Shown one piece after another: positions 5,708-28,939 of a stretch of 31,299 bases of DNA. The first letter of the stretch is position 1. Each line of letters opens with the position of its first letter. The position numbers and the translations under genes were made by a program. The stretch is from the IMG/VR virus record IMGVR_UViG_3300030102_003854, positions 1 to 31,299 of that record; one strand, 5' to 3'. The notes below the pieces were generated by a model. It saw only the letters and a list, made by a program, of their open reading frames with translations. It was not told where the DNA came from and did no database searches. The DNA comes from a virus.

Positions 5708-8700
5708 ATGGAAAAAATTAATTTTGTTGGACTACATGCTCATTCTGGTGTTGGGTCACCATTTGACGGATTTGGTTATCCGCAAGAGCATATGGACTTT
5801 GCTTATGAGAATGGCTCTGAAGCGTTGGCATTGACCGACCACGGGAACATGAACGGCTTTGCCTATCAGGTTCTTCACGCCAAGCGTATGAAGAAGCAAG
5901 GCAAGAACTTCAAGCCCATCTTTGGTGTTGAAGCATACTTCATCGAGTCTCTTGATGATTGGAAAGTCAAGTTGGAGGAATACAAAGCCGACAAGGTTAA
6001 GTCAAAGCAGATTGATAACGCACGTTCTGGAACTACGGTTGAAAACGAAGCAGAGTCAAAGTCTGCGACCAAACACGACATCAATCGCAAGAGACACCTT
6101 GTGCTTGTGGCAATGAACCAGACTGGCTTGAACAACATCTTTAAGTTGGTGTCTACGTCTTATTCGGGTGATTACTTCTATCGTAAGCCACGTATTGACT
6201 TTGAACTTCTCAAAGAACACAACGAAGGCATCATCGCCATGTCTGCGTGTCTTGGTGGTGTGTATGCTGGTTGTTACTGGCAGAATAGAGAGCAGGGTGA
6301 AGAAGCCGTACTTCAATGTATGCGTGAGATGACCACCAAGATGATGGACATCTTTGGTGACCGTTGGTACGGTGAACTGCAATGGAACGGTATCGCAGAG
6401 CAACACGAACTAAACCAATACATTATCAAAATGCACGAGGAGTTCGGTATTCGACTCGTATCCACCTGTGACTCTCACTATCCTAACCCAACTGCTTGGC
6501 AAGACCGTGAACTTTATAAGCGGATTGGCTGGCTTGGGAAAGGTGCGCCCGAGTGGCTTGACAACAACATCCCCGACCACATTGACGAAATGGAATACGA
6601 ACTGTATCCAAAGAACGGTGAACAAATGTGGGAGGACTACTTAAAATATTCTAAACAATGTGGAGTTGAATATAATGATGACCTTATACTACAATCTTTT
6701 GAAGAGACACATAGGATTGCTTTTGACAGAATTGAAGACTTTATCCCAGACAATACTGTCCGCTTACCTGACTTTGTCGTGCCTGCTGGCCACACCGCTG
6801 ATAATTATCTATCACAGTTGGCTTTCGAGGGTCTTCTCAGAATCCTTGAACGAAGAGGAACTAAAGATGCTGAGGGAGTGCTTGAACTTTACAATGACCG
6901 CCTCAGTCATGAACTTTCTGTTATTTCTGACCGTGGTTTTAGTCGCTACTTTCTTACTATGAAAGCAATCGTTGACAAGACTGACGAGGTACAACTCGCT
7001 GGTCCCGGTCGTGGTTCTGCTGCTGGTTCTCTTGTGGCTTATGCACTTGGCATTACACAGGTTGATCCTATCAAATACGGACTGCTGTTCTCTCGTTTCC
7101 TACGAGCGGATGCAACTGACTATCCTGATATTGATTTTGACGTGTCTGACCCGATGATACTCAAAGAAAAGTTAATTGAGGAGTGGGGTTCGAATACTGT
7201 TGTGCCTATCTCTAACTTCAATACGCTACAACTACGTTCTCTTATAAAGGACATATCTAAGTTCTACGACATCCCTTTTACTGAGGTAAACAAAGTGACT
7301 GCTGTGATGATGCGTGAAGCGACAGGCCCTGCTAAGAAGCGCAGAGGCATGAAAGCAGGTATGTACACTCCCAACTTTGAAGAGGTATGTGAGTTTTCAC
7401 CTACGCTTCAAGCATTCTTCCGTCAGTATCCTCGTGTCAAATCTCACGTTGAGGGCTTGATGGGTCAGATCCGCTCAACCTCTCGTCATGCTGGTGGTGT
7501 GGTTATTGGTGAGCAACTAGACCAGTTCATGCCATTGATTGCATCTAAGGGTGTCCGACAGACTCCTTGGTCCGAGGGGCAGAACGTCCGTCAATTAGAG
7601 CCAATGGGCTTCATTAAGTTTGATATTCTTGGCCTTGCAACACTGAGAATGATGGAAGAGTGTATCCGTAGAATACTTCAACGTCATCACGGCGTTGAGA
7701 ACCCTACCTTCGCAGATATCAAGGAGTACTACGATACTACCCTGCACCCGGACGTAGTAGACCTACACGACCAAGAAGTCTATAAGAATATCTTTCATGA
7801 TGGAAAGTGGATTGGGATCTTTCAGTTTGCTGAGAAAGGTGCGCAGAAGTTTGCGACCAAGGTTCAACCTAAGTCTATTGTTGATATTTCTGCTATCACA
7901 TCTATCTTTCGTCCCGGCCCTTTATCGGCTGGTGTTCATAACGATTATGTCGAGGCTGTACGTGATCCGCTATCAATCCGTTACGAGAATGAAATCATGG
8001 AAGAATTTACGAGTGAAACTCACGGTTTCCTCATCTTCCAAGAGCAGATTGCTTTGTTGGCTCACCATCTAGGTAAAGACTTGGATCTTGATGATGCTAA
8101 CCTGCTACGGAAACTTCTCACAAAGAAAGGTCTTGATCCTGCAAAGGAAGCAAAAAAGGAAGAGATATACAGCAAGTTTGTTGCTGGTTGTGTTGAGAAA
8201 GGCATGACCGAAGATATGGCAGATGAACTGTGGCAGAAGTTTGAATACTTCTCTGGTTACGGCTTTAACAAGTCTCACGCCGTGTCTTACTCGCTTGTGT
8301 CTTATCAGTGCGCTTGGCTTGCAACCTATTACAATGCTGAATGGTGCTGTGCTTTCTTGGACAAGGAACCGGAGACAAGAAAAGAAAAAGCAATCAACCT
8401 CGTGAAAGCACAAGGATATAACGTGAAGCCATTGAACATTAACACTTCAGGTCGTAATTGGGATATACTTGATAACTCTACTCTTGTTGCTCCCCTTACA
8501 ACAATCAAAGGCCTAGGTGATGCAGCCATAGATGAGATCTTAGAGAAGCGTCCTTTCACCTCAGTAGAGGACTTATTGTTCGACAAGGGTGTAGTGGCTC
8601 GGAAACTAAACAAGAAGTCTCTGGACGCTTTATGTCGCTCTAACGCAATGACTGATTTGATTGATGAACGCTTCAGTGGGTCCAAGCACTTCTGGTCTGC

Positions 8701-19395: not shown

Positions 19396-19695
19396 ATGAG
19401 AAAACCTCGATTTGATCCCGTTCGTTACAAATATGAAGTTGGAGACTTGATTGTTTGGAAAGATGTAATCGACCAACGAGGAGATGAAGTTGGGATTGTC
19501 ATCGGCTTGTTTCCCGACACTGTAGAAGAGGAAGAGTTACCAATCTACGTGGTTATGATGCCATACGGCCAAGACATTATAACTGGCTGGGATGCTCAAT
19601 TCGTTATGGAGCCTCACGATGTTTACCTTGAAAAGAAGAAAAAACTTGACAAATCAAAGAAAGATGTTATAATGAAGTATGGACAAAAAAAATGA
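19396..19695 (+). CDS. GDLV-family protein, long form
   Basis: A 99-residue protein with YEVGDLIVWKDV, GDEVGIVIGLFPD and IYVVMMPYG, giving the family's three strands, then a Lys-rich tail (LEKKKKLDKSKKDV). The ribosome site is weak (GATAAAG). A promoter for the following genes lies within its last codons, and it overlaps the next gene by 4 nt (ATGA). Confidence 0.65.
   Translation: MRKPRFDPVRYKYEVGDLIVWKDVIDQRGDEVGIVIGLFPDTVEEEELPIYVVMMPYGQDIITGWDAQFVMEPHDVYLEKKKKLDKSKKDVIMKYGQKK
19646..19673 (+). promoter_or_regulatory. Intragenic sigma70-like promoter
   Basis: TTGACA (19646-19651), 16-nt spacer, perfect TATAAT (19668-19673), inside the 3' end of the 19396 gene. It would start transcription about 12 nt before the ATG at 19692. 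Confidence 0.7.
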
Positions 19696-19868
19696 AAGTT
19701 GGGGATTTAGTAATCCTTTGCACTAACGCATACGAACCTGAGTTTGTTGATGATTGGGGTATTGGGATTGTTATGTCTCACTCGAAAGAGTTCCACACAG
19801 CAGATGTTTTTTGGTTCAAACGGAGTACCTACAGAGTATTCATTGATCGTGTACTGGAGATAATATGA
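19692..19868 (+). CDS. GDLV-family small protein
   Basis: A 58-residue protein starting MKVGDLVILC, then WGIGIVMSHSKE and TADVFWFKRS. ATG overlaps the previous TGA by 4 nt; the next gene overlaps its TGA in the same way. The start motif ATGAAAGT-GGGGA matches the array form in which upstream genes end at TGA. Confidence 0.65.
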   Translation: MKVGDLVILCTNAYEPEFVDDWGIGIVMSHSKEFHTADVFWFKRSTYRVFIDRVLEII

Positions 19869-20065
19869 AACTAGAGATCGGTGACCTTGTTGAATACAAG
19901 ATACTGCTTGGTTACGATGGCACTGGGTCTGTCTGGTCTTGGCGCGAGGGTATAGGCCACATCACAGGTGCGATATATCTGGATGATGGAGAGATGTTTT
20001 ACGAAGTCACAAGCGCAGATGGTGAACTACACGAAGCATTAGAAGAGGAACTAAAAAAACTTTGA
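19865..20065 (+). CDS. GDLV-family small protein
   Basis: A 66-residue protein: MKLEIGDLVEYK, GIGHITGAIYLDDGEM and an acidic C-terminal helix (GELHEALEEELKKL). Starts in a 4-nt ATGA overlap. The stop codon forms part of a TTGACA hexamer at 20062, 12 nt before the real -35 box. Confidence 0.65.
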   Translation: MKLEIGDLVEYKILLGYDGTGSVWSWREGIGHITGAIYLDDGEMFYEVTSADGELHEALEEELKKL

Positions 20066-20073
20066 CAAAATAC

Positions 20074-20101
20074 TTGACAAACACTACTGCCGTGATACAT
20101 T
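20074..20101 (+). promoter_or_regulatory. Sigma70-like promoter, extended -10
   Basis: TTGACA (20074-20079), 16-nt spacer, TGATACATT (TACATT at 20096-20101), the standard accessory-region promoter. Drives the three-gene unit at 20131-20638. Confidence 0.8.
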
Positions 20102-20130
20102 ACTTACACAAATGAATAAAGGAGAGTATT

Positions 20131-20322
20131 GTGCAAGTAGGAGACTTGGTAAGAATAAAGAACAGTTGGCACCTAAAAGGCCAAATGGGTATTGTAACAA
20201 AGTATGTCAAGAAAAAATCATTACCTGATACCGTACAGGTGTACATACCTAACCCACCACCAGAACAACCAAGCAACTGGGCTTGGCTACAATACTATAA
20301 TGTGGAGTTACTGTGCAAATAG
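20131..20322 (+). CDS. GDLV-family cassette protein
   Basis: A 63-residue protein from GTG 20131, opening MQVGDLVRIKN, with MGIVTKYVKK and TVQVYIPNPP, ending NVELLCK. The last ten bases (GTGCAAATAG) are also the start of the next gene, the cassette junction described in the findings. AAGGAG lies 7 nt upstream of the start. Confidence 0.75.
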   Translation: MQVGDLVRIKNSWHLKGQMGIVTKYVKKKSLPDTVQVYIPNPPPEQPSNWAWLQYYNVELLCK

Positions 20323-20477
20323 GCTCCTTAGTGCGACACAAGGATAGTGGTTCAATCGGTATAGTGGTTTATATTTCTCCTGTGCCCGAAGCCATTCATC
20401 ACATTGAAGTATGGATATGTGATGACAACAGCACTAGATGGTGGTCGCACGAGTTTTGCGAGGTAATATGCAAGTAG
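20313..20477 (+). CDS. GDLV-family cassette protein
   Basis: A 54-residue protein from GTG 20313: MQIGSLVRHKDSG, IGIVVYISPVPEA, HIEVWICDDN, ending FCEVICK. Both ends lie in ten-base overlaps with neighbours. The SD for its start (GGAG) lies inside the coding sequence of the upstream gene. Confidence 0.7.
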   Translation: MQIGSLVRHKDSGSIGIVVYISPVPEAIHHIEVWICDDNSTRWWSHEFCEVICK

Positions 20478-20638
20478 GTGATTTGGTATTGATAACGTCA
20501 AATGATAAGCAACTAAAAATGGTGGGGGTCTACATAGGTAAGCCATACCACTGCCAGTTTTCATACAAACTAATGTACGAGGGCGGTAAGGTCGCAGACT
20601 TTGACATAAGATTTTGGAAAATAGAAGTTTTGTCTTGA
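20468..20638 (+). CDS. GDLV-family cassette protein (terminal)
   Basis: A 56-residue protein: MQVGDLVLITSND, MVGVYIGKPYH, YKLMYEGGKV, ending WKIEVLS. As last of its run it lacks the CK end; its TGA stop lies inside the TTGACA of the next promoter (20635). GAGG upstream of the start lies in the previous gene. Confidence 0.7.
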   Translation: MQVGDLVLITSNDKQLKMVGVYIGKPYHCQFSYKLMYEGGKVADFDIRFWKIEVLS

Positions 20639-20662
20639 CAAATCTTTCAAACGTGTTACATT
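20635..20662 (+). promoter_or_regulatory. Sigma70-like promoter, extended -10
   Basis: TTGACA (20635-20640), 16-nt spacer, TACATT (20657-20662) with TGT before it. The -35 contains the stop codon of the upstream gene. Confidence 0.8.
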
Positions 20663-20691
20663 ATAAATGACATATAAACAAAGGAGATAAA

Positions 20692-21018
20692 ATGTCAACA
20701 TTCATTCAACTAACACCATTCGATAACATTGGCTTGGTCGCTCACTCTGACGAAACAATAAAAGAGTTTGCCACGATCACTATCAACCGCGACCATATTG
20801 TTGCAATACGAAAGCCAAGGAGACGTAGTAATAACTCCCTAAGATGTGATGGACTTACTTACACTCCGACCATTATAACATTGGTCACAGGCGACGTAGT
20901 CAAGGTCTGCGAGTCTTATGAATATGTGCGTGGTTTTGACAGTGCAGGACTATATCCTTACGTTCAAGGCGTTCGCACTGACCAATGGGGTAATGCGATT
21001 GTTGAAGAGCAAGGATAA
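20692..21018 (+). CDS. Hypothetical protein
   Basis: A 108-residue protein with its own promoter and AAGGAG site. Strands TITINRDHIVAIRKPRRR and TIITLVTGDVVKVCESYE suggest a small beta fold like those at 9625 and 16773. A basic loop (RKPRRRSNNSLR) could contact nucleic acid. Function unknown. Confidence 0.6.
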   Translation: MSTFIQLTPFDNIGLVAHSDETIKEFATITINRDHIVAIRKPRRRSNNSLRCDGLTYTPTIITLVTGDVVKVCESYEYVRGFDSAGLYPYVQGVRTDQWGNAIVEEQG

Positions 21019-21036
21019 AAAACTTGCCCACACCCC

Positions 21037-21065
21037 TTGACAAATGTTAGGGGGTGTGTTACCTT
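21037..21065 (+). promoter_or_regulatory. Promoter with -35 inside an inverted repeat
   Basis: TTGACA (21037-21042), 17-nt spacer, TACCTT (21060-21065). Perfect 8-bp arms CACACCCC (21029-21036) and GGGGTGTG (21051-21058), one of the clearest examples of this type. Confidence 0.8.
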
Positions 21066-21086
21066 ATAAACAACCACGGAGGAAAC

Positions 21087-21338
21087 ATGGCCTCATACTA
21101 TCAATACGAAAACGCAACACCTTACAGATTTGACCACGGGCTGGTGCCCCAAACAGGCGATCTTGTAATCGTAAAGACTACTGTGATGAGTTCTATTTAT
21201 CTTGACGACGGCCTCCCGATGTTTGTGGTCGGGTATATTGTGGAAGCACCTGATAACTGTCGCGATAATGATGTGGTCGTTCTGGTCAATGGCGAGACAC
21301 GCGACATACATTACAGTTGGCTAAGAAAAGTTTCCTAA
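21087..21338 (+). CDS. GDLV-family protein with N-terminal extension
   Basis: ATG 21087 with CGGAGG 5 nt upstream (not the ATG at 21054, before the ribosome site). The 83 residues start with a Tyr-rich extension, then PQTGDLVIVKTTV, VVGYIVEAPD, VVVLVNGETRDIHYSWLRKVS. The 3' end shares AAAGTTTCCTAAAATACTTG with the end of the 24446 gene. Confidence 0.65.
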   Translation: MASYYQYENATPYRFDHGLVPQTGDLVIVKTTVMSSIYLDDGLPMFVVGYIVEAPDNCRDNDVVVLVNGETRDIHYSWLRKVS

Positions 21339-21343
21339 AATAC

Positions 21344-21371
21344 TTGACAGACTTTTTTATTGTGTTATAAT
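21344..21371 (+). promoter_or_regulatory. Sigma70-like consensus promoter
   Basis: TTGACA (21344-21349), 16-nt spacer ending TGTGT, perfect TATAAT (21366-21371). Drives the zinc-ribbon gene and the run to 22441. Confidence 0.85.
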
Positions 21372-21400
21372 AATAATGAACCCTAACACTGGAGGTCATT

Positions 21401-21739
21401 GTGGCCCGTTTCAAGGATTGTACCCACTGTGGTGATAGATTTAGATTAGATAGCCAGCGCAAAAAGCGTGTTGGTGGCAAGATAAACGAGTGCCCTGACT
21501 GCGTTGAAGAGTTACAGACTGAGACTGCCCCCGTGATACGGGGCTTTGTATCAGGTTCTGCCAAACAAGCAGCCATTTCTTTTGTCAGGTTTGACAACGA
21601 GAAAGACGCTATCCGTTATGGCAAAGCGTGGAGAGCCAACTCAGGATGGAACAACCAACGGTCTGGTGGATTGAATGACGTAAGATTCACTCACGCTGGT
21701 GCAAATGCAACAGAAGAACCAAAAAAGAAAGGAGCATAG
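21401..21739 (+). CDS. Zinc-ribbon protein
   Basis: A 112-residue protein from GTG 21401 (GGAGG upstream). Cys7, Cys10, Cys31 and Cys34 (CTHC and CPDC) form a C4 zinc ribbon with a basic loop (SQRKKRVGGK), a likely nucleic-acid or protein-binding module. The rest (FVRFDNEKDAIRYGKAWRAN) resembles an RNA-binding-style beta-alpha unit, and the C-terminus is Lys-rich. Function unknown. Confidence 0.7.
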   Translation: MARFKDCTHCGDRFRLDSQRKKRVGGKINECPDCVEELQTETAPVIRGFVSGSAKQAAISFVRFDNEKDAIRYGKAWRANSGWNNQRSGGLNDVRFTHAGANATEEPKKKGA

Positions 21740-21740
21740 T

Positions 21741-21941
21741 ATGTCCAGTCTTACACAGTTTGAAAAAGTTGAGAAAGAAGTTGAGAGAATGGCTGAAAGA
21801 CTTACCCTCACACAACTACTAGTTAGTAGTATGGAACTTATTAAAGATTTGCCAGAAGATGAACGTGATGCTGCTTGGCAGTCAGTGTTTCTCTTGATTG
21901 AGGGCGCACGTCTAAATGGGGTTCTCGTAGCGGAGGGCTGA
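21741..21941 (+). CDS. Hypothetical helical protein
   Basis: ATG 21741, with GGAG 9 nt upstream. A 66-residue all-helical product (QFEKVEKEVERMAERLTL, TQLLVSSMELIKDLPEDERDAAW). No recognised family; its stop is one base from the next GTG start. Confidence 0.6.
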   Translation: MSSLTQFEKVEKEVERMAERLTLTQLLVSSMELIKDLPEDERDAAWQSVFLLIEGARLNGVLVAEG

Positions 21942-21942
21942 T

Positions 21943-22128
21943 GTGGAGTTTGAGATAGGAGACTTAGTTATTGATCCCGATTTGGGCATCGGTTTAGTTA
22001 CCGAGGTCATGGTGGATGATAATGAGATTGACGGTCTTATCTATCTCGTTTTCTACGCAAAAGTAGACGAACACGTTTTAGAGTATGCCTACGAACTGAT
22101 ACCCTATTGCCCAGGGTACAGAGACTAA
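21943..22128 (+). CDS. GDLV-family small protein
   Basis: A 61-residue protein: MEFEIGDLVIDPD, IGLVTEVMVDD, IYLVFYAKVDE, YELIPYC. GTG start at 21943, with CGGAGGG in the end of the preceding gene as ribosome site. Typical family layout. Confidence 0.65.
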   Translation: MEFEIGDLVIDPDLGIGLVTEVMVDDNEIDGLIYLVFYAKVDEHVLEYAYELIPYCPGYRD

Positions 22129-22141
22129 CACAGGAGGAACA

Positions 22142-22441
22142 ATGGCAAATCTAGCATTCAGCAAAAAAGAACCTTGGGATGAAGTGCATCGTGCAATGAC
22201 GACACACATACTTGACCAGACCGATGGTGCGTTTGAGATAAGAAACAAGAACGGTGCGCTCTGTGTTTATGCAGAGGGTTCTGATACACTACCAGAGGGG
22301 CCTGCGGGCTATAGGAAGATCGTACCATCTTCATACAAGGATGGTGCTGACTTACCAGTTAGGTTTATGGGGTGGCGATGTGTTTATTACAACGTGCCAT
22401 ACGGACTGTTAGACATAATGTTCAGAGAAAAGAAAAAATAG
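22142..22441 (+). CDS. Hypothetical protein
   Basis: A 99-residue protein with AGGAGG upstream. The sequence (AFEIRNKNGALCVYAEG, YRKIVPSSYKDG, RFMGWRCVYYNVPYGLLDIMF) suggests a mixed fold with a Cys pair far apart. No family recognised. A promoter follows immediately. Confidence 0.6.
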   Translation: MANLAFSKKEPWDEVHRAMTTHILDQTDGAFEIRNKNGALCVYAEGSDTLPEGPAGYRKIVPSSYKDGADLPVRFMGWRCVYYNVPYGLLDIMFREKKK

Positions 22442-22454
22442 TTTATCTTTTTTC

Positions 22455-22482
22455 TTGACAAATCTTATAACCGTGATACATT
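22455..22482 (+). promoter_or_regulatory. Sigma70-like promoter of the zinc-knuckle gene
   Basis: TTGACA (22455-22460), 16-nt spacer, TGATACATT (TACATT at 22477-22482). Preceded by GTTTATCTTTTTTC, the upstream block shared by several accessory promoters. Confidence 0.8.
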
Positions 22483-22520
22483 GAATATGTAACCAACAAC
22501 CGCACAGCCTTGGAGGTACA

Positions 22521-23441
22521 GTGCAAGTATATGATAATAAGGGAAGTCGCGGTCCAAACTCTTGTGGCTATTGTCGAGAGTCTGGACATAATATAACACA
22601 ATGCCCTCACGTCGCTGGTGACTACGCATCGTGGATAAGAATGGAAGTTCCTTTGAAAGATCCTGGCAACTGGGTACATAACCGTAGAATGCGTTATGGT
22701 AGAGGTCACTGGTTCAAGAACCCTAGGTATTGGGGCGAGTGGTATCAAATGGCTATGAACGCACACGCCAAGCAGGAAGCATCAAAGAAAAAAGCAAAAA
22801 CTCCTCGTAGGCAACGTGGTCCTAGGAAATGTGGTTTTTGTGGTGGAGCAGGTCATACCCGTAGGCACTGTGCAGAAATGTTAGCATTTCGTCAAAAAGC
22901 AAAGAGAGCAAATCAGGCTATCCGTCGTCACGTTTATGACCTACTGGTCACTGAACACGGACTAGATGTCGGTGCTTTGATTGAACCTATGCAAAGAAGA
23001 TATGATTATAACACTAGACAATATGATAATGTCTCCTTGGGTGTCTGTACAGTTACTTCGATAAACTGGGATAAAATCAGTGTTACTTCGGACATAAATA
23101 ACTCTCTCGCAGGGGGTCTGCCTCGTTTAGACTGGGAACTTCAGACACCAATAACCATCGAATGGATTACACCAGATGGTAATAAAGGTCATAGCCAGAT
23201 CGACATAGGAAAGCCCATCGTTGGTAATCCTGACGAAAATCAGTGGGGTAGTAGAACATTTTTCAACAGAGTAATCTCTCCATCCCCCACACCCCTAGAC
23301 GAGGAATGGGTAGAGAACGCACGGCAGGATGCCTTTGACTGGTTATCTAAGAAGCGTAATCTTGAATGGCTGACAAACAAAAACATAGTTGCATTAGTGG
23401 ACCTATGGTCTGCACGATATGAAGATGTGGAGGAAAAATGA
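22521..23441 (+). CDS. Double zinc-knuckle (CCHC) protein
   Basis: A 306-residue protein with two CX2CX4HX4C zinc knuckles: Cys15-Cys18-His23-Cys28 (CGYCRESGHNITQC) and Cys104-Cys107-His112-Cys117 (CGFCGGAGHTRRHC). Such knuckles bind single-stranded RNA or DNA in retroviral nucleocapsid and eukaryotic RNA-binding proteins and are rare in phages. The region between and after them is strongly basic (KKKAKTPRRQRGPRK). Residues about 150-306 form a separate, Trp-rich, mixed domain of unknown family. The start GTGCAAGTA matches the first nine bases of the GDLV cassettes. Confidence 0.8.
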   Translation: MQVYDNKGSRGPNSCGYCRESGHNITQCPHVAGDYASWIRMEVPLKDPGNWVHNRRMRYGRGHWFKNPRYWGEWYQMAMNAHAKQEASKKKAKTPRRQRGPRKCGFCGGAGHTRRHCAEMLAFRQKAKRANQAIRRHVYDLLVTEHGLDVGALIEPMQRRYDYNTRQYDNVSLGVCTVTSINWDKISVTSDINNSLAGGLPRLDWELQTPITIEWITPDGNKGHSQIDIGKPIVGNPDENQWGSRTFFNRVISPSPTPLDEEWVENARQDAFDWLSKKRNLEWLTNKNIVALVDLWSARYEDVEEK

Positions 23442-23644
23442 AAGACATTGTGGGAAAACTATACCGACATAGGTATTACACCGAAGAATACTGGGTAGTC
23501 ACAGAAAAGTTTGTGTCTGCTGGAACAGGCAGACGGTCTTTGAAACTAAAACTAACCAGTCCTAGCAACAGACTAGGCAACGCAGCGACAGGGATTACTC
23601 ACATATATGAGGACACCTTACACAAAGATTATGAAGAAATCTAA
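23438..23644 (+). CDS. Small protein, possible divergent GDLV relative
   Basis: A 68-residue protein coupled to the zinc-knuckle gene by a 4-nt ATGA overlap, with GGAGG just upstream. DIVGKLYRHRYY, YWVVTEKF, SLKLKLTSPS and THIYEDTLHKDY suggest the same small beta-barrel layout, but the GDLV core is not intact. Function unknown. Confidence 0.55.
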   Translation: MKDIVGKLYRHRYYTEEYWVVTEKFVSAGTGRRSLKLKLTSPSNRLGNAATGITHIYEDTLHKDYEEI

Positions 23645-23653
23645 ACTTTTTTC

Positions 23654-23681
23654 TTGACAAATCCTACTACCGTGATACATT
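23654..23681 (+). promoter_or_regulatory. Sigma70-like promoter, extended -10
   Basis: TTGACA (23654-23659), 16-nt spacer, TGATACATT (TACATT at 23676-23681), preceded by CTTTTTTC. Drives 23704 and 23865. Confidence 0.8.
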
Positions 23682-23703
23682 ACAAACAACAACGGAGGGA
23701 ACA

Positions 23704-23868
23704 ATGCAAGTAGGAGATGTAGTCTGCCTACCCTGCAAGCGAGAGATTGGTCTAGTTATGCAGATTGGCAATGGAACAGATGACGATATGATTTACGTTC
23801 ATTGGACAGGCGGTCAGTTCGCTGGTGAAACAGAGTGGTGGGTTGCTGCTTTACTGGAGGTAGTGTGA
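23704..23868 (+). CDS. GDLV-family cassette protein
   Basis: A 54-residue protein: MQVGDVVCLPCKR, IGLVMQIGNG, IYVHWTGGQF, ending AALLEVV. At its end the TGC codon of other cassettes is TGA, removing the CK tail and at the same time giving the downstream start GTGAAAGTAGG (M-K-V-G). CGGAGGG precedes its own start. Confidence 0.7.
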   Translation: MQVGDVVCLPCKREIGLVMQIGNGTDDDMIYVHWTGGQFAGETEWWVAALLEVV

Positions 23869-24047
23869 AAGTAGGTGATTTAGTTGCACACCGCGACCCA
23901 CACATTTACATTGACGATCCGAAAGGCGAGCGTTCTCTGGGTATGGTTGTGGAAATCAGTAGGATAACAAAGTCAGTGAAAGTGTATTGGCCCCGATGGT
24001 TTGGGTTTCAATACTTCTACGATGCTGAGGATTTGAGAAAAATATAA
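23865..24047 (+). CDS. GDLV-family cassette protein
   Basis: A 60-residue protein from GTG 23865: MKVGDLVAHRDPH, LGMVVEISRI, SVKVYWPRWFG, ending DAEDLRKI. It overlaps the previous TGA by 4 nt, with GGAGG in the upstream gene. An upstream in-frame TTG at 23835 is not used, judging by the family start. Confidence 0.7.
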   Translation: MKVGDLVAHRDPHIYIDDPKGERSLGMVVEISRITKSVKVYWPRWFGFQYFYDAEDLRKI

Positions 24048-24065
24048 AAAACTTTATCTTTTTTC

Positions 24066-24093
24066 TTGACAAATCCTGCTACCGTGATACATT
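24066..24093 (+). promoter_or_regulatory. Sigma70-like promoter, extended -10
   Basis: TTGACA (24066-24071), 16-nt spacer, TGATACATT (TACATT at 24088-24093), preceded by AAAAACTTTATCTTTTTTC. Drives the three-gene unit 24124-24598. Confidence 0.8.
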
Positions 24094-24123
24094 ATGAATG
24101 TAACCAACAACAACGGAGACAAA

Positions 24124-24294
24124 ATGCAAGTAGGTGATTTGGTAAAACATAAGAATGGAATAAAAAACATTGGATTGATTGTAGATTACCTAAGTGACCA
24201 CGGGTTATACAAAGTCAGGTGGCTTGTGTCTAGCATTCATTATTACGAAAATAGCACAGGTATTTGTCCAGCCAAAAACTTGGAGGCAATATGA
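24124..24294 (+). CDS. GDLV-family cassette protein
   Basis: A 56-residue protein: MQVGDLVKHKNGI, IGLIVDYLSD, LYKVRWLVSS, ending AKNLEAI. Like the 23704 gene it stops at TGA where other cassettes have TGC, and the downstream gene starts M-K-V. CGGAG lies 7 nt before its ATG. Confidence 0.7.
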   Translation: MQVGDLVKHKNGIKNIGLIVDYLSDHGLYKVRWLVSSIHYYENSTGICPAKNLEAI

Positions 24295-24455
24295 AAGTAG
24301 GCGATTTGGTAAGTTATATTCCATACGGTCACGACAATAGCGATGGTAGTGTCGGTATTATCCTAAGCATTTCTGACGGATACTATGATGTTTATTGGTC
24401 TGACATTGGTGTGATTGGTCTGGTCTATAGCGAGTTGGAGTTAGTATGCGAGTAG
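24291..24455 (+). CDS. GDLV-family cassette protein
   Basis: A 54-residue protein: MKVGDLVSYIPYG, VGIILSISDG, YYDVYWSDIG, ending LELVCE. The last ten bases (ATGCGAGTAG) start the next gene, so the C-terminal Glu here and the Arg at position 2 of the next protein come from the same G. Confidence 0.7.
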   Translation: MKVGDLVSYIPYGHDNSDGSVGIILSISDGYYDVYWSDIGVIGLVYSELELVCE

Positions 24456-24598
24456 GCGACCTAGTGATGCACTGCGAGGATAGAAAGTTTGGTGTCATCA
24501 CAAGACTAGCAAAAGACAACTACCCTTTTTATGTGGTCGAGTTTGTTGATGGTGGTATGTGCTTGTGCTCTCCACAATCTTTGATAAAAGTTTCCTAA
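24446..24598 (+). CDS. GDLV-family cassette protein (terminal)
   Basis: A 50-residue protein, the shortest family member: MRVGDLVMHCEDR, FGVITRLAKD, FYVVEFVDGG, ending SLIKVS. The start lies in a ten-base overlap with the upstream gene; the end lacks CK because a promoter follows. Confidence 0.68.
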   Translation: MRVGDLVMHCEDRKFGVITRLAKDNYPFYVVEFVDGGMCLCSPQSLIKVS

Positions 24599-24603
24599 AA
24601 TAC

Positions 24604-24631
24604 TTGACAAATCTTTCAGACGTGATACATT
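24604..24631 (+). promoter_or_regulatory. Sigma70-like promoter, extended -10
   Basis: TTGACA (24604-24609), 16-nt spacer, TGATACATT (TACATT at 24626-24631). The upstream 20 nt match those before the promoter at 21344. Confidence 0.8.
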
Positions 24632-24660
24632 ACTAGTACCCCCCGAACATAGGAGATACG

Positions 24661-24906
24661 ATGGGTAAGAAAAAGAAAATCAAAAACCCCTACAACCTCA
24701 CACTAACCGAAGCAGTGCAAATCGCTGAGGGCGAGGTAGAAGTTGAAGAGAACAAATATATTGCAACGTGGCAGTGGCTTATTGATACTGACCATGCTTG
24801 GAACCTACAGGGTTTCTATGGCCGAGCAGCAGCAAGTATGATACAGAATGGCCTTTGTACAATGCCCAACCAACCAGACAACGGAGATAATGATGGAAGC
24901 AAATAA
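24661..24906 (+). CDS. DUF7417-like phage protein, copy 1
   Basis: An 81-residue protein with a Lys-rich start (GKKKKIKNPY), EAVQIAEGEVEVEE, and the pattern WQWLIDTDHAWNLQGFYGRAAASMIQNGLC. That pattern (LI-T-xAW-LQG-YGR-A--I--G-C) is a common small phage protein family, which I believe is annotated DUF7417; function unknown. It is about 79% identical (64 of 81, hand count) to the product at 28381. It overlaps the next gene by 14 nt. Confidence 0.75.
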   Translation: MGKKKKIKNPYNLTLTEAVQIAEGEVEVEENKYIATWQWLIDTDHAWNLQGFYGRAAASMIQNGLCTMPNQPDNGDNDGSK

Positions 24907-25120
24907 TGAGATCAACATTAGCATTAGCGTTAGCGATGACTTGCTAAAGAAAGTTATGGGTATGATGGTTACCCTCAATCAGCCAGCCCCGATGGGGATA
25001 CCAGCAGCGATGCTTGGAGCCTTGGCAGGCCCACCACCATCAAAAAAACCGAACAAAGAAGATAGAACACCCATAGGGTTTGGTCGCCCTGATAACAACG
25101 AGGAGAATGCAAATGACTAG
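24893..25120 (+). CDS. Hypothetical protein, duplicated partner, copy 1
   Basis: A 75-residue protein from ATG 24893 (CGGAGA upstream). The N-terminal strand INISISVSDDLLKKVMGMM is followed by QPAPMGIPAAMLGALAGPPP and a disordered Pro/Lys tail ending IGFGRPDNNEE. Close paralogue at 28613. Function unknown; always paired with the DUF7417-like gene here. Confidence 0.65.
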   Translation: MEANNEINISISVSDDLLKKVMGMMVTLNQPAPMGIPAAMLGALAGPPPSKKPNKEDRTPIGFGRPDNNEENAND

Positions 25121-25334
25121 CAAACTAAAACCATATAGAGCAACCACCGATGAAGCCATCGACATACTCAATCACATTTATGATCGCTGCCCTGATAACT
25201 TTTCTTACAGTGTCGCACTATACGACAACTATGAGATAAAGTGTAATAGAACCAACGACACAATCGTGTTGGCGATGTGGTCTTTTCGTGATCCCGATAG
25301 CGTATTACTCGCATTCCATAAAGATTTTGTGTAA
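25113..25334 (+). CDS. Hypothetical protein
   Basis: ATG 25113 is favoured over ATG 25107 because AGGAG lies 7 nt before it. The 73-residue protein (RATTDEAIDILNHIYDRCPDN, YSVALYDNYEIKCNRTND) appears alpha-beta. It overlaps its neighbour by 8 nt and has no counterpart in the second copy of the duplicated block. Confidence 0.6.
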   Translation: MTSKLKPYRATTDEAIDILNHIYDRCPDNFSYSVALYDNYEIKCNRTNDTIVLAMWSFRDPDSVLLAFHKDFV

Positions 25335-25351
25335 AAACTTCATCTTTTTTC

Positions 25352-25379
25352 TTGACAAATCTCAGCAGTGTGATACATT
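25352..25379 (+). promoter_or_regulatory. Sigma70-like promoter, extended -10
   Basis: TTGACA (25352-25357), 16-nt spacer, TGATACATT (TACATT at 25374-25379), preceded by AAAAACTTCATCTTTTTTC. Confidence 0.8.
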
Positions 25380-25410
25380 ACAAACATAACCGACAAACAG
25401 CGGAGGTCAA

Positions 25411-26169
25411 ATGACTATCACAATCGAACAAATCACAAAAACTGCTGACATTTGCGAGGGCCTTGGTAAAGCGAGTAAGGCGCACGTTTTACGAAGCATC
25501 GCTGACCAGTATGTTGAGAAAGGACAAATCAGTTCTCGGCAGATTGAATGGTGTCAGGAGCAGATCACAGCATTTCCTGCTGAAATGTACGAGGAACAGA
25601 TAAGAAAGCGTAACGAATGGCAAGCACTATGGGATGCTAAAGATGAGCAGTTCCTCAAATGGATTGACTTCTTGACCCTGTTCTATGTGTCTAGCCGTGT
25701 TGTTCCTAATCACGGTCACGTTCAATGGTATAAACATTGTGCTAAAGAGTTACGTAGGACACTGGGCTTGTATTATGATGGCCTTGATCCTGATCTTACT
25801 ATGTCTCGACTTGAGAGATTGGAGGGTAGCAAACTGCGTGATAAACTGTGGGCCTGCTTCAACTCTACCCCCCTGTATGCGGTAGGTGACCTAGTGTCCA
25901 TACGAGGAACCGCTCCCACGTTCTCGTCTTGGCGCATCATCAGTTACAGTCACGATGAGTTTCGTAACGGTCTGCACGGCTATCAGGACCGTAAGGTTGC
26001 GAAGCCTTACAAGACAGCCCTAGTTGCCGAGGTTCTAAACGCTACGTTTGCCTGCCGTCAGATGCACAAATCAAAGGGTAGCACCCGTCTGTACAAGATT
26101 GTGGCATTTAGCGGAGGTCAATCCGATGAGACTTGGGTCTGTGAAAGCGACATAAAACTGGTAAAATAA
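25411..26169 (+). CDS. Two-domain protein: unknown N-terminal helical domain fused to GDLV-like domain
   Basis: A 252-residue protein. Residues 1-150 are helical (ICEGLGKASKAHVLRSIADQY, QIEWCQEQITAFP, WYKHCAKELRRTLGLYY) with no recognised family. From about 155 the sequence reads YAVGDLVSIRGTAP, then WRIISYSHDE, TALVAEVLNA and TRLYKIVAFSGG, the GDLV signature and strands as a C-terminal domain. This shows that the small proteins are a real fold used as a domain. A CGGAGG site and own promoter precede it. Confidence 0.65.
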   Translation: MTITIEQITKTADICEGLGKASKAHVLRSIADQYVEKGQISSRQIEWCQEQITAFPAEMYEEQIRKRNEWQALWDAKDEQFLKWIDFLTLFYVSSRVVPNHGHVQWYKHCAKELRRTLGLYYDGLDPDLTMSRLERLEGSKLRDKLWACFNSTPLYAVGDLVSIRGTAPTFSSWRIISYSHDEFRNGLHGYQDRKVAKPYKTALVAEVLNATFACRQMHKSKGSTRLYKIVAFSGGQSDETWVCESDIKLVK

Positions 26170-26179
26170 CGGAGACACA

Positions 26180-26380
26180 ATGCAAGTAGGCGACTTAGTA
26201 ACACTATCATCAGCAGGTAAAAAAAATCAAGGAAACGTAGCAGTCATTGGTTTACTGGGAGTTATTACCAAAATCAAGGAGCATACCTACCCTTATGAAA
26301 TCCGCTGGTGGAACGCTCCAAGGGGAGACTGCCCTAACGGATTGCTTTCTATGAAGCGATACGAGATAAAAAAAGTTTGA
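26180..26380 (+). CDS. GDLV-family protein, TLSAAGKKN subtype, copy 1
   Basis: A 66-residue protein: MQVGDLVTLSSAGKKNQGN, LLGVITKIKEH, YEIRWWNAP, ending MKRYEIKKV. Close paralogue of the 27793 product, including the C-terminal YEIKKV and the following bases up to the promoter. CGGAGA precedes the ATG. Confidence 0.72.
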   Translation: MQVGDLVTLSSAGKKNQGNVAVIGLLGVITKIKEHTYPYEIRWWNAPRGDCPNGLLSMKRYEIKKV

Positions 26381-26388
26381 GAAAATAC

Positions 26389-26416
26389 TTGACAAACTCT
26401 ACTACCGTGATACACT
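26389..26416 (+). promoter_or_regulatory. Sigma70-like promoter, extended -10
   Basis: TTGACA (26389-26394), 16-nt spacer, TGATACACT (TACACT at 26411-26416). Drives the three overlapping cassettes 26445-26988. Confidence 0.75.
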
Positions 26417-26444
26417 ACCTATGTAACCCAAGCAAGGAGACACA

Positions 26445-26630
26445 ATGCAAGTTGGAGACTTAGTTAGATACCAGCACAAATACCCAGATGGTATGGAGGT
26501 AGACTGGATTGGAATAGTGATTGACTGTGAGATTGACAGCATTGGGAGGATTGTTCCTCATGTTCAATGGAACAACGGGATGAGACAATGGAGATACGAT
26601 ATGAGGGAGTTGGAGGTAGTATGCAAGTAG
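26445..26630 (+). CDS. GDLV-family cassette protein
   Basis: A 61-residue protein: MQVGDLVRYQHKY, WIGIVIDCEID, PHVQWNNGMRQW, ending RELEVVCK. AAGGAG precedes the ATG. Its last ten bases are the ATGCAAGTAG start of the next gene, and its LEV codons are that gene's ribosome site. Confidence 0.75.
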   Translation: MQVGDLVRYQHKYPDGMEVDWIGIVIDCEIDSIGRIVPHVQWNNGMRQWRYDMRELEVVCK

Positions 26631-26782
26631 GAGACTTAGTTAGACACGACCAAGGACACATCGGCATCATTACCTGTATAGACCCCGAACAGATAGGCGA
26701 CGACGATGAAGTGGAAGTCCTTTGGAATGATGGGGATATATGCAATATGTCTGTGTGGGATTTGGAGGTGATATGCAAGTAG
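26621..26782 (+). CDS. GDLV-family cassette protein
   Basis: A 53-residue protein: MQVGDLVRHDQGH, IGIITCIDPE, EVEVLWNDGD, ending WDLEVICK. Ten-base overlaps on both sides; the start has TTGGAGGTAGT upstream, inside the previous gene. Confidence 0.75.
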   Translation: MQVGDLVRHDQGHIGIITCIDPEQIGDDDEVEVLWNDGDICNMSVWDLEVICK

Positions 26783-26988
26783 GTTCATTAGTAAAGTTCA
26801 ACGAGGAGCGTTTACCCTACGTTCTCGGCCCCAGCAACGCAAAGCATTACAAGGGCAAGATAGGTATTATCATTGAAGCCAAGGACGACCACAAAGAACC
26901 GACCTCCAGCACACTGTTCAAGATACACATAGATGGAGAGAGCCTTGAATGGTTCGTATGGCACGAGCTGGAGGTGGTATGCAAATAG
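26773..26988 (+). CDS. GDLV-family cassette protein
   Basis: A 71-residue protein: MQVGSLVKFNEER, GKIGIIIEAKDD, LFKIHIDGES, ending HELEVVCK. It keeps the CK end and the ATGCAAATAGG junction at 26979 although no family gene follows; see the orphan start finding. Confidence 0.72.
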   Translation: MQVGSLVKFNEERLPYVLGPSNAKHYKGKIGIIIEAKDDHKEPTSSTLFKIHIDGESLEWFVWHELEVVCK

Positions 26989-27071
26989 GAAAAACTTTAT
27001 CTTTTTTCTTGACAACTCCTACTCCACAGGTTACATTACTAACATCACAACGAACCGAGAGGTCAATATGA
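26979..27071 (+). pseudogene. Orphan cassette start leading into a promoter
   Basis: ATGCAAATAGG with GGAGGT upstream is a proper junction, but after MQIG the frame reads through the promoter and leader for only 30 codons to a TGA overlapping the next ATG. The missing DLV body suggests that a cassette was lost or replaced here. Confidence 0.4.
27009..27037 (+). promoter_or_regulatory. Sigma70-like promoter
   Basis: TTGACA (27009-27014), 17-nt spacer, TACATT (27032-27037), preceded by AAAAACTTTATCTTTTTTC. No TG at the extended position (GGTTACATT). Drives the five-cassette run 27068-28002. Confidence 0.75.
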
Positions 27072-27268
27072 AAAACATTGAGATTGGCGATTTAGTCAGA
27101 ATAGTAAGTGAATGGAGAGGACACAACCCTTGGATGAAGTTTCCCGATGAACAGCCCATTATTGGCTTGATTACAGGTATTTCACACAACATCACTGCTT
27201 ATAGGGTATTGACCGAGGGCAGGGAAATCTTGCTACCGCCAACGAGAGTGGAGGCATTATGCAAGTAG
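27068..27268 (+). CDS. GDLV-family cassette protein
   Basis: A 66-residue protein: MKNIEIGDLVRIVSEW, IGLITGISHN, AYRVLTEGRE, ending VEALCK. GAGAGG lies 5 nt before ATG 27068. An ORF reading in frame from far upstream crosses the promoter and is not real. Ten-base overlap with the next gene. Confidence 0.7.
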   Translation: MKNIEIGDLVRIVSEWRGHNPWMKFPDEQPIIGLITGISHNITAYRVLTEGREILLPPTRVEALCK

Positions 27269-27435
27269 GAGATTTAGTTATTGATCGCTCAATCAGCAAA
27301 AGAAGAATGGCGATTATCCTTGCTAAGGATTATGTTACAACCATTGGAACTCCATTCGATTGGCTGATCTTTTATATTGATACTGGCCAGCGATGGGGAG
27401 CTGATAATCGTGACTTGGAGGTAGTATGCAAATAG
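27259..27435 (+). CDS. GDLV-family cassette protein
   Basis: A 58-residue protein: MQVGDLVIDRSIS, MAIILAKDYV, WLIFYIDTGQRW, ending RDLEVVCK. Ten-base overlaps on both sides; GGAGG for its start is inside the upstream gene's LEA codons. Confidence 0.75.
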   Translation: MQVGDLVIDRSISKRRMAIILAKDYVTTIGTPFDWLIFYIDTGQRWGADNRDLEVVCK

Positions 27436-27599
27436 GAGATTTAGTGAGAACCATTCCTCTCTCACACCAACACCATCTACCCCCCAGAATGGGCATTCTT
27501 TTAGAGGTTGATGTAGGGCATTATCCAGTAATGGTGCTTTGGTTTGATGGTACAAAGAGGACTGTCGCATGGAACAGGTTGGAGGTAGCATGCAAGTAG
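27426..27599 (+). CDS. GDLV-family cassette protein
   Basis: A 57-residue protein: MQIGDLVRTIPLSHQ, RMGILLEVDVG, PVMVLWFDGT, ending NRLEVACK. Starts at ATGCAAATAG, the A-variant of the junction (Ile instead of Val at position 3), and ends in ATGCAAGTAG shared with the next gene. Confidence 0.75.
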   Translation: MQIGDLVRTIPLSHQHHLPPRMGILLEVDVGHYPVMVLWFDGTKRTVAWNRLEVACK

Positions 27600-27802
27600 G
27601 AGATTTAGTAATGCTACCGTCCTCGCTCGGATACATTAGAGACAGACCAAATCTAAAGCTCATCGGTGTCGTGGTAAGAAAATGGAATAGAGAGGTTACC
27701 TACAATAAGGGTATCCGTATCCAAGAGTATGTCAACGTGCAGTGGGCTAACGGTAACGAATGTGACTACAGACCCGAATGGCTGGAGGTATTATGCAAGT
27801 AG
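27590..27802 (+). CDS. GDLV-family cassette protein
   Basis: A 70-residue protein: MQVGDLVMLPSSL, LIGVVVRKWNRE, YVNVQWANGNE, ending EWLEVLCK. Ten-base overlaps on both sides. Confidence 0.75.
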   Translation: MQVGDLVMLPSSLGYIRDRPNLKLIGVVVRKWNREVTYNKGIRIQEYVNVQWANGNECDYRPEWLEVLCK

Positions 27803-28002
27803 GAGATTTAGTAACACTATCAGCAGCAGGCAAAAAGAACAAAGGCAACGATCTAGTTGTGGGAAAGGTAGGGGTTATTATTGAAATCAGCGAACCGTCA
27901 CAAGCGAAATACCCAATCAATGTTCGCTGGTTCAATGCCTTGGGTTTGCGCCATACTCGCGATACACTCAGGGTGAAACGATACGAGATAAAAAAAGTTT
28001 GA
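27793..28002 (+). CDS. GDLV-family protein, TLSAAGKKN subtype, copy 2
   Basis: A 69-residue protein: MQVGDLVTLSAAGKKNKGN, KVGVIIEISEP, INVRWFNALG, ending VKRYEIKKV. Paralogue of the 26180 product; both end in YEIKKV followed by nearly the same bases and a promoter. Here it is joined to the array by the ten-base junction, whereas copy 1 stands alone, which shows that one cassette can sit in either context. Confidence 0.75.
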   Translation: MQVGDLVTLSAAGKKNKGNDLVVGKVGVIIEISEPSQAKYPINVRWFNALGLRHTRDTLRVKRYEIKKV

Positions 28003-28010
28003 GAAAAAAC

Positions 28011-28038
28011 TTGACAAACATTCAAAACGTGATACATT
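28011..28038 (+). promoter_or_regulatory. Sigma70-like promoter, extended -10
   Basis: TTGACA (28011-28016), 16-nt spacer, TGATACATT (TACATT at 28033-28038). Drives 28067-28834. Confidence 0.8.
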
Positions 28039-28066
28039 ATTATTGTCAGCAACACAGGAGGACACA

Positions 28067-28381
28067 ATGAGAAGATCAACAAACAAACAAGTAGTGAAAG
28101 CGTTCCTAGATGGTCGTAATGCCCAAGCAGGAAGCCTTTCATCCGTTCATTTACCTGCTACTGCACAGGAACCCCCCCGTGGGTATCTGCGCTCGTATAA
28201 CCAAGTTATCGCAAGATACGAGGAGGGAGCTGGATTTATTGTCTTTGACTTTACTTCGGCTGGTGAGTATATCTCGCAAACAACGTCATCACACGTTGGC
28301 CTTATCAAGCGAGAGCTACCAAACAAGTGTGTGATGCACCCACAACAAGCTAGACTGGGCGGTCTACTAGGAGGTCGATGA
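28067..28381 (+). CDS. Hypothetical protein
   Basis: A 104-residue protein from ATG 28067 behind AGGAGG. A basic start (RRSTNKQVVKAFLDGRNAQAG), a central strand pair (YNQVIARYEEGAGFIVFDFTS) and a Gly-rich end (ARLGGLLGGR). No family recognised. Overlaps the next start by one base. Confidence 0.6.
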   Translation: MRRSTNKQVVKAFLDGRNAQAGSLSSVHLPATAQEPPRGYLRSYNQVIARYEEGAGFIVFDFTSAGEYISQTTSSHVGLIKRELPNKCVMHPQQARLGGLLGGR

Positions 28382-28626
28382 TGCCTAAGAAACGTAAAAT
28401 CAAAAATCCTTACAAGCTAACCCTGCTCGAAGCCGTACAGATAGCCGAGGGCGAGGTAGAAGTAGAAGAGGATAAGTTCATAGCAACTTGGCAATGGCTG
28501 ATAGATACAGGCCATGCTTGGAGACTGCAAGGTTTCTATGGTCGCGCTGCTGCCAGCTATATTCAAAACGGGCTATGCACAATGCCCAGTGACACACAAG
28601 ACGGAGAAAACAATGGAACCAAATAA
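28381..28626 (+). CDS. DUF7417-like phage protein, copy 2
   Basis: An 81-residue paralogue of the 24661 product with the same LIDTGHAWRLQGFYGRAAAS core. ATG 28381 is chosen over the adjacent ATG 28378 because it gives MPKK aligned to MGKK of copy 1 and a 6-nt gap to AGGAGG. The C-terminal 14 residues are the most diverged part. Overlaps the next gene by 14 nt, as in copy 1. Confidence 0.75.
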   Translation: MPKKRKIKNPYKLTLLEAVQIAEGEVEVEEDKFIATWQWLIDTGHAWRLQGFYGRAAASYIQNGLCTMPSDTQDGENNGTK

Positions 28627-28834
28627 CGAGATCAGCATCACCATCAATGTGAGCGATGACCTGCTAAAGCGCGTAATGGGTTTGTATGCAACCATCAACC
28701 AGCCCCAGCAGATGGGCATTCCTGCTGCATTGCTTGGAGCCTTAGCAGGGCCACCACCAAAAGCATCAGCCGAAAACAAAGATTCAAAGCCTGCTATCGG
28801 CTTTGGTCGAGAAAAAGTTGAAAAAAATACTTGA
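28613..28834 (+). CDS. Hypothetical protein, duplicated partner, copy 2
   Basis: A 73-residue paralogue of the 24893 product: ISITINVSDDLLKRVMGL, QPQQMGIPAALLGALAGPPP, then a charged tail ending IGFGREKVEKNT. The TGA stop (28832-28834) lies inside the TTGACA of the next promoter. Confidence 0.65.
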   Translation: MEPNNEISITINVSDDLLKRVMGLYATINQPQQMGIPAALLGALAGPPPKASAENKDSKPAIGFGREKVEKNT

Positions 28835-28858
28835 CAAATCAAACAAACGTGATACATT
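28831..28858 (+). promoter_or_regulatory. Sigma70-like promoter (upstream of tandem pair)
   Basis: TTGACA (28831-28836), 16-nt spacer, TGATACATT (TACATT at 28853-28858). No gene starts before the second promoter 53 nt further on. Confidence 0.75.
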
Positions 28859-28910
28859 ATATATGTGACCAGCGAAGATAGTGAGACAACAAAAAAGTTT
28901 ATCTTTTTAC

Positions 28911-28939
28911 TTGACAATCTGTTTCAAACTAGTTACATT
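28911..28939 (+). promoter_or_regulatory. Sigma70-like promoter of the MoxR gene
   Basis: TTGACA (28911-28916), 17-nt spacer, TACATT (28934-28939), preceded by AAAAAAGTTTATCTTTTTAC. Leader to the ATG at 28993 is about 47 nt. Confidence 0.75.

Follow-up and report, generated by a model that had tools for sequence, protein, structure and literature searches.

The window analysed here is a 31,299-base IMG/VR virus record (IMGVR_UViG_3300030102_003854) in which genes of 50–71 residues, whose products begin M-x-V/I-G-D/S-L-V, stand in runs between 19.7 and 28.0 kb. We put the probability at roughly 0.8 that these runs represent a modular array of small SH3-like genes that are exchanged as cassettes by way of the overlapping junction at which one gene ends and the next begins. 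The junction is 20–25 nt long; in the upstream frame it encodes the predicted last β-strand (LEV) and a dispensable tail (CK, CE, ESR or none), and in the downstream frame it provides a Shine-Dalgarno (SD) site, the start codon and the first residues (M-K/Q-V-G-D) of the following protein. An initial annotation of the window had noticed the junctions and proposed a cassette system; its observation is confirmed here and its interpretation is largely supported by comparison with related sequences, having withstood both refutation tests named in that annotation (a fixed gene order, and a junction similarity that disappears when protein conservation is taken into account).

A repeated coding junction links the array genes

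Base-by-base checking of the window identified nine gene overlaps of 10 nt (starts 20313, 20468, 24446, 26621, 26773, 27259, 27426, 27590 and 27793), composed of an upstream end C-K/E-stop (…LEV-x-CK-stop) and a downstream start ATG/GTG-CAA/CGA-GTA/ATA-GG (MQVG), together with three ATGA/GTGA overlaps of 4 nt (starts 23865, 24291 and 19865). The 20-nt motif GGAGGTAGTATGCAAGTAGG, allowing at most 3 mismatches, has 11 copies in the window, all on the + strand, against an expectation of 0.00 and none in 100 shuffles. The ten junctions claimed by the initial annotation are real at base level; its list in fact held eleven, omitted the 4-nt overlap at 19865 and overlooked a complete but geneless junction at 26970–26989. 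The correspondence it had described between the end of one gene (CK, CE or TGA) and the start of the next is present. It is nevertheless arithmetic: one frame off, ATG-CAA-GTA-G reads TGC-AAG-TAG (CK stop), ATG-CGA yields CE and ATG-AAA an immediate TGA, so that the match is forced by the DNA overlap and adds no evidence.

Relatives were collected from IMG/VR by pattern scans and a MoxR search, giving a set of 103 contigs, 1.57 Mb in all, that carries 1,288 family genes; at least one is present in 99 contigs and the maximum per contig is 31. Overlaps join 679 of the 1,185 consecutive family-gene pairs, the principal lengths being 14 nt (343), 10 nt (151) and 4 nt (105). The 14-nt form commonest in the wider clade pairs a …SESR-stop end with GTGAAAGTCGGTGA. 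A general form of the start that is visible only in these relatives, ATG-AAA-GTA/GTC-GGT-GA, contains stops in both other frames: +1 is TGA at once, and +2 reads (AT)GAA-AGT-CGG-TGA (…ESR stop). Because the start sequence stops both other frames, a cassette bearing it can follow almost any other.

The geneless junction at 26970–26989 reads through into the promoter behind it as MQIG-KTLSFF…, and in two relatives a family gene sits at this point, after the same upstream gene. The orphan reads as a probable scar, left when a promoter module took the place of the following cassette. Very short orphan open reading frames (ORFs) in relatives (VRVGD-stop and VKVGEK-stop) would mark further scars.

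Breakpoints of exchanged genes fall at the junction

Several stretches of the window are closely similar to related loci while the backbone around the swapped genes is about 70–80% identical or unalignable. Single genes at 92–96% identity to their window counterparts occur beside other neighbours in relatives with a backbone identity of about 73–80%. A promoter with its gene (26388–26631) is 94.3% identical to L037 12851–13094; 26607–26783 is 95.5% identical to L040 7376–7552, with unrelated flanks and a change from MQ to MK; the single gene within 26760–26989 is 95.7% identical to L037 and 92.6% to L036, with different neighbours on both sides; and 27258–27442 is 96.2% identical to L036 13285–13469, again with different neighbours. 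When aligned base by base, identity starts between the SD site and codon 3 and stops at the TAGG/TGA of the next junction.

So that whole genes were not preselected, the analysis took every short block that overlapped a family gene and reached at least 85% identity between non-clonal contigs. This gave 129 blocks, counted in both directions, of which 124 are one gene long; a gene boundary is found within 15 nt of 71% of their left and 67% of their right ends, compared with 16% when blocks are shifted at random (at most 25% in any of 200 trials). The density of short high-identity blocks, 48 inside arrays and 30 outside per 100 kb, is not a useful control because the outside blocks are, on our reading, mostly conserved backbone.

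Gene order is fluid. Among 558 ortholog pairs from non-clonal contigs (at least 45% amino acid identity, close downstream neighbour), the downstream neighbour was orthologous in only 47 and differed in 511, with 41 distinct gene clusters involved. In 22 comparisons with tight joints, A-B is set against A-X-B, or A-X-B against A-Y-B. In one indel, gene A is 99.1% identical over 213 nt, and one side of the comparison has a 198-nt gene X, bounded by two junction copies, that the other lacks; the tail of A changes from ISESR to ISGSR, owing to a different codon 2 in the new neighbour. Such comparisons show that individual cassettes have been exchanged, gained, lost and replaced among phages, and that the breakpoints coincide with the junction. 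Only one of the 429 nucleotide-similar gene pairs lies within a single contig, which argues that arrays are refreshed from other phages and not by recent tandem duplication. Swapping at the junction, as foreseen in the initial annotation, is thus borne out, expansion by tandem duplication is almost absent, and the recombination mechanism is inferred.

Leader and tail are shared beyond protein conservation

Similarity at the junction persists after protein conservation is accounted for. In 14-nt junctions Val3 is encoded by GTC in 224 of 273 cases (82%), compared with an interior baseline of 22%; alternative valine codons would give no stop there, leaving GTC unforced by protein or frame. Starts without an upstream ORF are also enriched for GTC/GTA. 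In the window, promoter-proximal starts mostly keep ATGCAAGTAGG as had been claimed (20131 as GTG, 23704, 24124 and 26180), with exceptions at 26445 (GTT) and 27068 (MKNIEIG).

A GIY-YIG nuclease (Pfam, 1.1e-16) at locus coordinates 4916–5176 of L117 (3300030333_005934) is inserted as a cassette. Its VKVGD start directly follows …VVSESR and its INESR end runs into the next family gene, whereas homologues outside arrays open with MKNWY/MKEWY and lack a terminal ESR; in another array copy only the tail is present. Foreign genes can, as this comparison shows, be fitted with leader and tail. Two more non-family bodies bear the leader (MKVGEQEFDAI… and MQVGDYHRECG…) and have no convincing Pfam match. 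At related loci (e.g. L041 6310–6522 and L078 5843–6052) a second recurrent cassette family, with the motif ...AIYLGEAFIHRDDGV...ENHRVLMVG...IIDRGLLK..., has the same leader and a poor SH3-like profile score.

Proposed mechanism and competing explanations

In the cassette model the start ATG-AAA/CAA/CGA-GTA/GTC-GGT-GA carries a stop for the upstream gene in the two other frames and so fits behind almost any cassette. Crossover would take place by homologous recombination or strand annealing within the shared junction, probably aided by the phage RecA-family recombinase, and a new gene would join a promoter-driven operon in the correct frame and already supplied with a ribosome site, leaving the neighbouring genes intact. 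A bolder version, which we advance tentatively and regard as somewhat more likely wrong than right, holds that the junction is a dedicated, self-compatible coding splice site in DNA. Because the start stops two other frames and the end is a ribosome site, the clade could maintain a common stock of genes, dozens of them SH3-like or captured from elsewhere, that plug into any position, yielding a combinatorial repertoire for host takeover or counter-defence.

Several observations weigh against cassette exchange at the junction. Some 30% of the block ends are not near a junction, and a number of array genes lack an overlap or end atypically. The evidence comes entirely from metagenome contigs and is sequence only, and the counts are not fully independent because several records re-assemble overlapping samples. 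Selection for intact overlaps after illegitimate recombination would also place breakpoints at gene ends, and sequence data cannot fully separate selection on joints from homology-directed crossover.

The junction may alternatively exist for translational coupling, setting stoichiometry by termination-reinitiation, with shuffling as a by-product. Overlaps of 4, 10 and 14 nt with an SD site inside the upstream gene have the classical geometry of coupling. As the purpose of the junction we nonetheless consider coupling unlikely, since it leaves unexplained both the same nucleotides at starts that have no upstream gene and the leader and tail on captured foreign genes; it is also compatible with cassette exchange.

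Slightly less likely again is ordinary mosaicism, in which illegitimate recombination strikes anywhere, selection retains joints at gene ends, and junctions are alike through selection on the SD site, the start and MKVGD/LEV. Mosaic joints in phages commonly lie at gene boundaries, and the block ends found away from junctions fit this explanation. Illegitimate recombination is named as a mechanism in the introduction of PMC3203893. Mosaicism does not, however, account for the Val3 codon bias of the 14-nt class or for a leader MKVGD and tail ESR on unrelated proteins whose homologues elsewhere lack them, and random joints would have to hit a 10–14-nt overlap and keep two frames dozens of times. 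Given leaders grafted onto foreign bodies and codons that neither protein nor frame dictates, shared nucleotides explain the position of the joints better than selection alone.

Origin of paralogues by unequal crossing-over, with the junction an inherited repeat boundary, would suit the tandem arrangement, common fold and common start of the members. It is very unlikely given the single intra-contig pair: the sequences closest to a given gene are found in other phages, beside different neighbours, not in the same array. Recent tandem duplication as the source of the arrays is largely refuted; ancient duplication of the family may still have occurred.

Least probable of all is misjoining of co-occurring strains by assemblers at the short repeated junctions, which the use of metagenome contigs throughout might invite, since exchanged genes differ by 4–12% between contigs, arrays that are almost the same turn up in records assembled independently (133 pairs of high identity whose two flanks are high as well; for example 3300006751_000022 and 3300025096_000004 share the same gene and tail), and a 20–25-nt repeat is below the usual assembly k-mer size.

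The array proteins are predicted SH3-like barrels

Structure prediction, which the initial annotation had proposed as a check for an SH3/KOW fold, indeed predicted an SH3-like barrel. The AlphaFold model of the 26621 gene product, built from a 58-sequence alignment, has a predicted local distance difference test (pLDDT) score of 95.7 and strands at residues 6–9, 14–19, 30–35, 40–44 and 48–52, and the family is accordingly predicted to consist of five-stranded SH3-like barrels. The last strand is LEVIC, so the codons of the final β-strand contain the SD site of the gene that follows. Structure matches of this model are to Tudor/KOW domains, with a template modelling (TM) score of about 0.7–0.8 and E of about 0.02; structure and profile matches together include Tudor, KOW (DSIF, NusG, uL24, eS4) and other SH3-like barrels; all are weak, though most share a single fold type. 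The family thus resembles small SH3-like barrels of the KOW/Tudor/CarD-RID/DUF4314 type in predicted fold and weak profile matches. Unlike them, it is unassigned in Pfam and PHROGs, which gave only sub-threshold SH3-like matches; none of the matches reported for the first member passes a curated Pfam cut-off. The best match in the viral library is an unnamed 60-residue protein (77% identity). A ratio of non-synonymous to synonymous polymorphism (pN/pS) of 0.25 across 125 pairs indicates real, selected proteins.

An iterated profile recovered 19 members in the window (E<1e-3), with a few extra G-D-L-V-like ORFs; the earlier figure of at least 25 is plausible only under a loose definition. The proposed paralogue pair 26180/27793 is real, its similarity only distant.

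Window features and promoter modules

Features of the window are collected in Table 1. Runs of family genes are separated by near-identical TTGACA…TACATT modules, which form a second joint type at run ends. Besides the module tabulated, others start at 20074, 20635, 21037, 21344, 22455, 23654, 24066, 24604, 25352, 27009, 28011, 28831 and 28911. Across 20074–28938 the flanks of the modules are conserved, often with ACTTTATCTTTTTTC before and a purine-rich SD site after. The module is a candidate second, PeSL-like repeated joint, and its promoter form suggests early expression of the array. The region 26325–26416 resembles 27950–28040, each comprising the KRYEIKKV end of a gene (26180 and 27793, respectively) and the promoter that follows; from this likeness, the C-terminus-plus-promoter block may itself be a cassette end.

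Table 1. Array genes, junctions and a representative promoter module of the window
Position	Strand	Feature	Basis or match
19692-19868, 19865-20065	+	Family genes joined by 4-nt ATGA overlap	Base-by-base check
20131-20322	+	Family gene, promoter-proximal, GTG start, C-terminus VELLCK	Profile
20313-20477	+	Family gene, overlaps 20131 gene by 10 nt, C-terminus VICK	Profile; ortholog L003 6162-6329
20459-20478	+	Junction copy (SD + ATG-CAA-GTA-GG / CK stop)	Motif scan
20468-20638	+	Family gene, 10-nt overlap, closes run	Profile
23704-23868	+	Family gene, promoter-proximal	Profile
23865-24047	+	Family gene, 4-nt (GTGA) overlap	Profile
24124-24294	+	Family gene, promoter-proximal	Profile
24291-24455	+	Family gene, 4-nt (ATGA) overlap, C-terminus VCE	Profile
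24446-24598	+	Family gene, 10-nt overlap (CE/MRV)	Profile; L003 ortholog 6480-6632 behind different gene
26180-26380	+	Family gene, LSAAGKK...KRYEIKKV subfamily, not in overlap array	Profile
26389-26416	+	Promoter module TTGACA-17/18-TACATT	One of ~14 near-identical, 20.0-29.0 kb
26445-26630	+	Family gene, promoter-proximal	Block shared with L037
26621-26782	+	Family gene, structure modelled	Block shared with L040
26773-26988	+	Family gene	Blocks shared with L037, L036
26970-26989	+	Orphan junction, SD+ATGCAAATAGG, no family gene behind; promoter module directly after	
27068-27268	+	Family gene, promoter-proximal, start MKNIEIG (non-standard leader), C-terminus ALCK	Profile
27259-27435	+	Family gene	Block shared with L036
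27426-27599	+	Family gene	90.8% identical to L003 11697-11870 (locus end)
27590-27802	+	Family gene, 10-nt overlap	Profile
27793-28002	+	Family gene, 10-nt overlap, KRYEIKKV end then promoter	Profile

The phages that carry the array

Besides the array, the window encodes a DnaE-type polymerase, UvdE, dUTPase, ClpP, an amidase, a GroEL-like chaperonin, a trypsin-like protein and a MoxR-type AAA ATPase. Related long records span 184–206 kb; a RecA-family gene was present in all 11 tested and a sheath-like match in 10 of the 11 (5 over the cut-off), which points to contractile-tailed phages with a recombinase. The carriers are a clade of uncultured marine contractile-tailed phages. The 185.9-kb record 3300030104_006883 has about 27 profile matches, most inside 30 kb around the record ends. 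Array genes at its two ends are similar but non-identical, which suggests a circular genome with strain variation within the array; no exact end repeat was found.

Cultured relatives are at most 33% identical in MoxR and about 30% in DnaE, and matches to array protein or DNA were absent (50,697 phage records); as all cultured phages are distant, the host is not assignable from them. Assignment through prokaryote genomes was rejected, the four loci in metagenome-assembled genomes (MAGs) coming from unrelated phyla and being mutually contradictory, with a WOR-3 locus lacking the array. That locus (CP070664.1, a WOR-3 MAG 'chromosome' of 2.85 Mb, 585894–606952) has a MoxR relative (61%) and could be a provirus or a mis-joined phage contig.

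Relation to known modular systems

The PeSL promoter/stem-loop cassettes of T4-type phages shuffle neighbouring small genes (Arbiol 2010; Comeau 2014; via PMC4503421). As PMC4503421 describes them, they are, like the array joint, short repeats between small genes of large myoviruses with shuffled neighbours, but PeSL is an intergenic promoter-terminator, whereas the array joint is coding on both sides, with SD site, start and stop within one operon. Related phages that carry the array do differ in the genes next to the joint. The main joint, in place of an intergenic early promoter with stem-loop terminator, is a promoterless coding sequence, and promoter spacers end some runs. In cluster K mycobacteriophages, SAS/ESAS repeats lie at the translation starts of many small genes of diverse families, and SAS was considered a possible target for homologous recombination (PMC3203893). 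The array likewise has a conserved repeat right at the start of many genes; it differs in that its repeat supplies the C-terminal codons of one protein as well as the N-terminal codons of the protein that follows, and in that exchange at the repeat is shown by sequence comparison. Inverted repeats of 17 bp as in ESAS (about half of sites) were not noticed on reading the window, for which no dedicated search was made.

Integrons likewise hold interchangeable cassettes of one gene each, strung together through a site that recurs between them. The array joint is a coding sequence of 20–25 nt, much shorter than the integron attC site. In lambdoid phages, recombinases exchange modules at short or diverged homology, a likeness to the array; the boundary sequences and relaxed homologous recombination studied there involved regions of at least 100 bp and >70% identity (PMC3945230), whereas the array joint is short and repeated within one genome. 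The array joint would belong with boundary sequences that mediate modular exchange, what is new being that it is coding on both sides and self-similar along the array. Literature searches of partial coverage found no earlier description of the array.

How phages acquire and trade small genes while their compact operons stay intact has long been asked, and the usual answer is that joints form at random and selection does the rest. In the array the joint itself can be seen: a short connector within coding sequence ensures the reading frame, the ribosome site and the stop, and nature offers many before-and-after pairs at base level. Junction-directed exchange becomes directly testable in laboratory phages. 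The leader and tail provide a practical tag for finding captured genes. The array points to a large unannotated family of small proteins, which we would guess to be interchangeable host-interaction or counter-defence factors.

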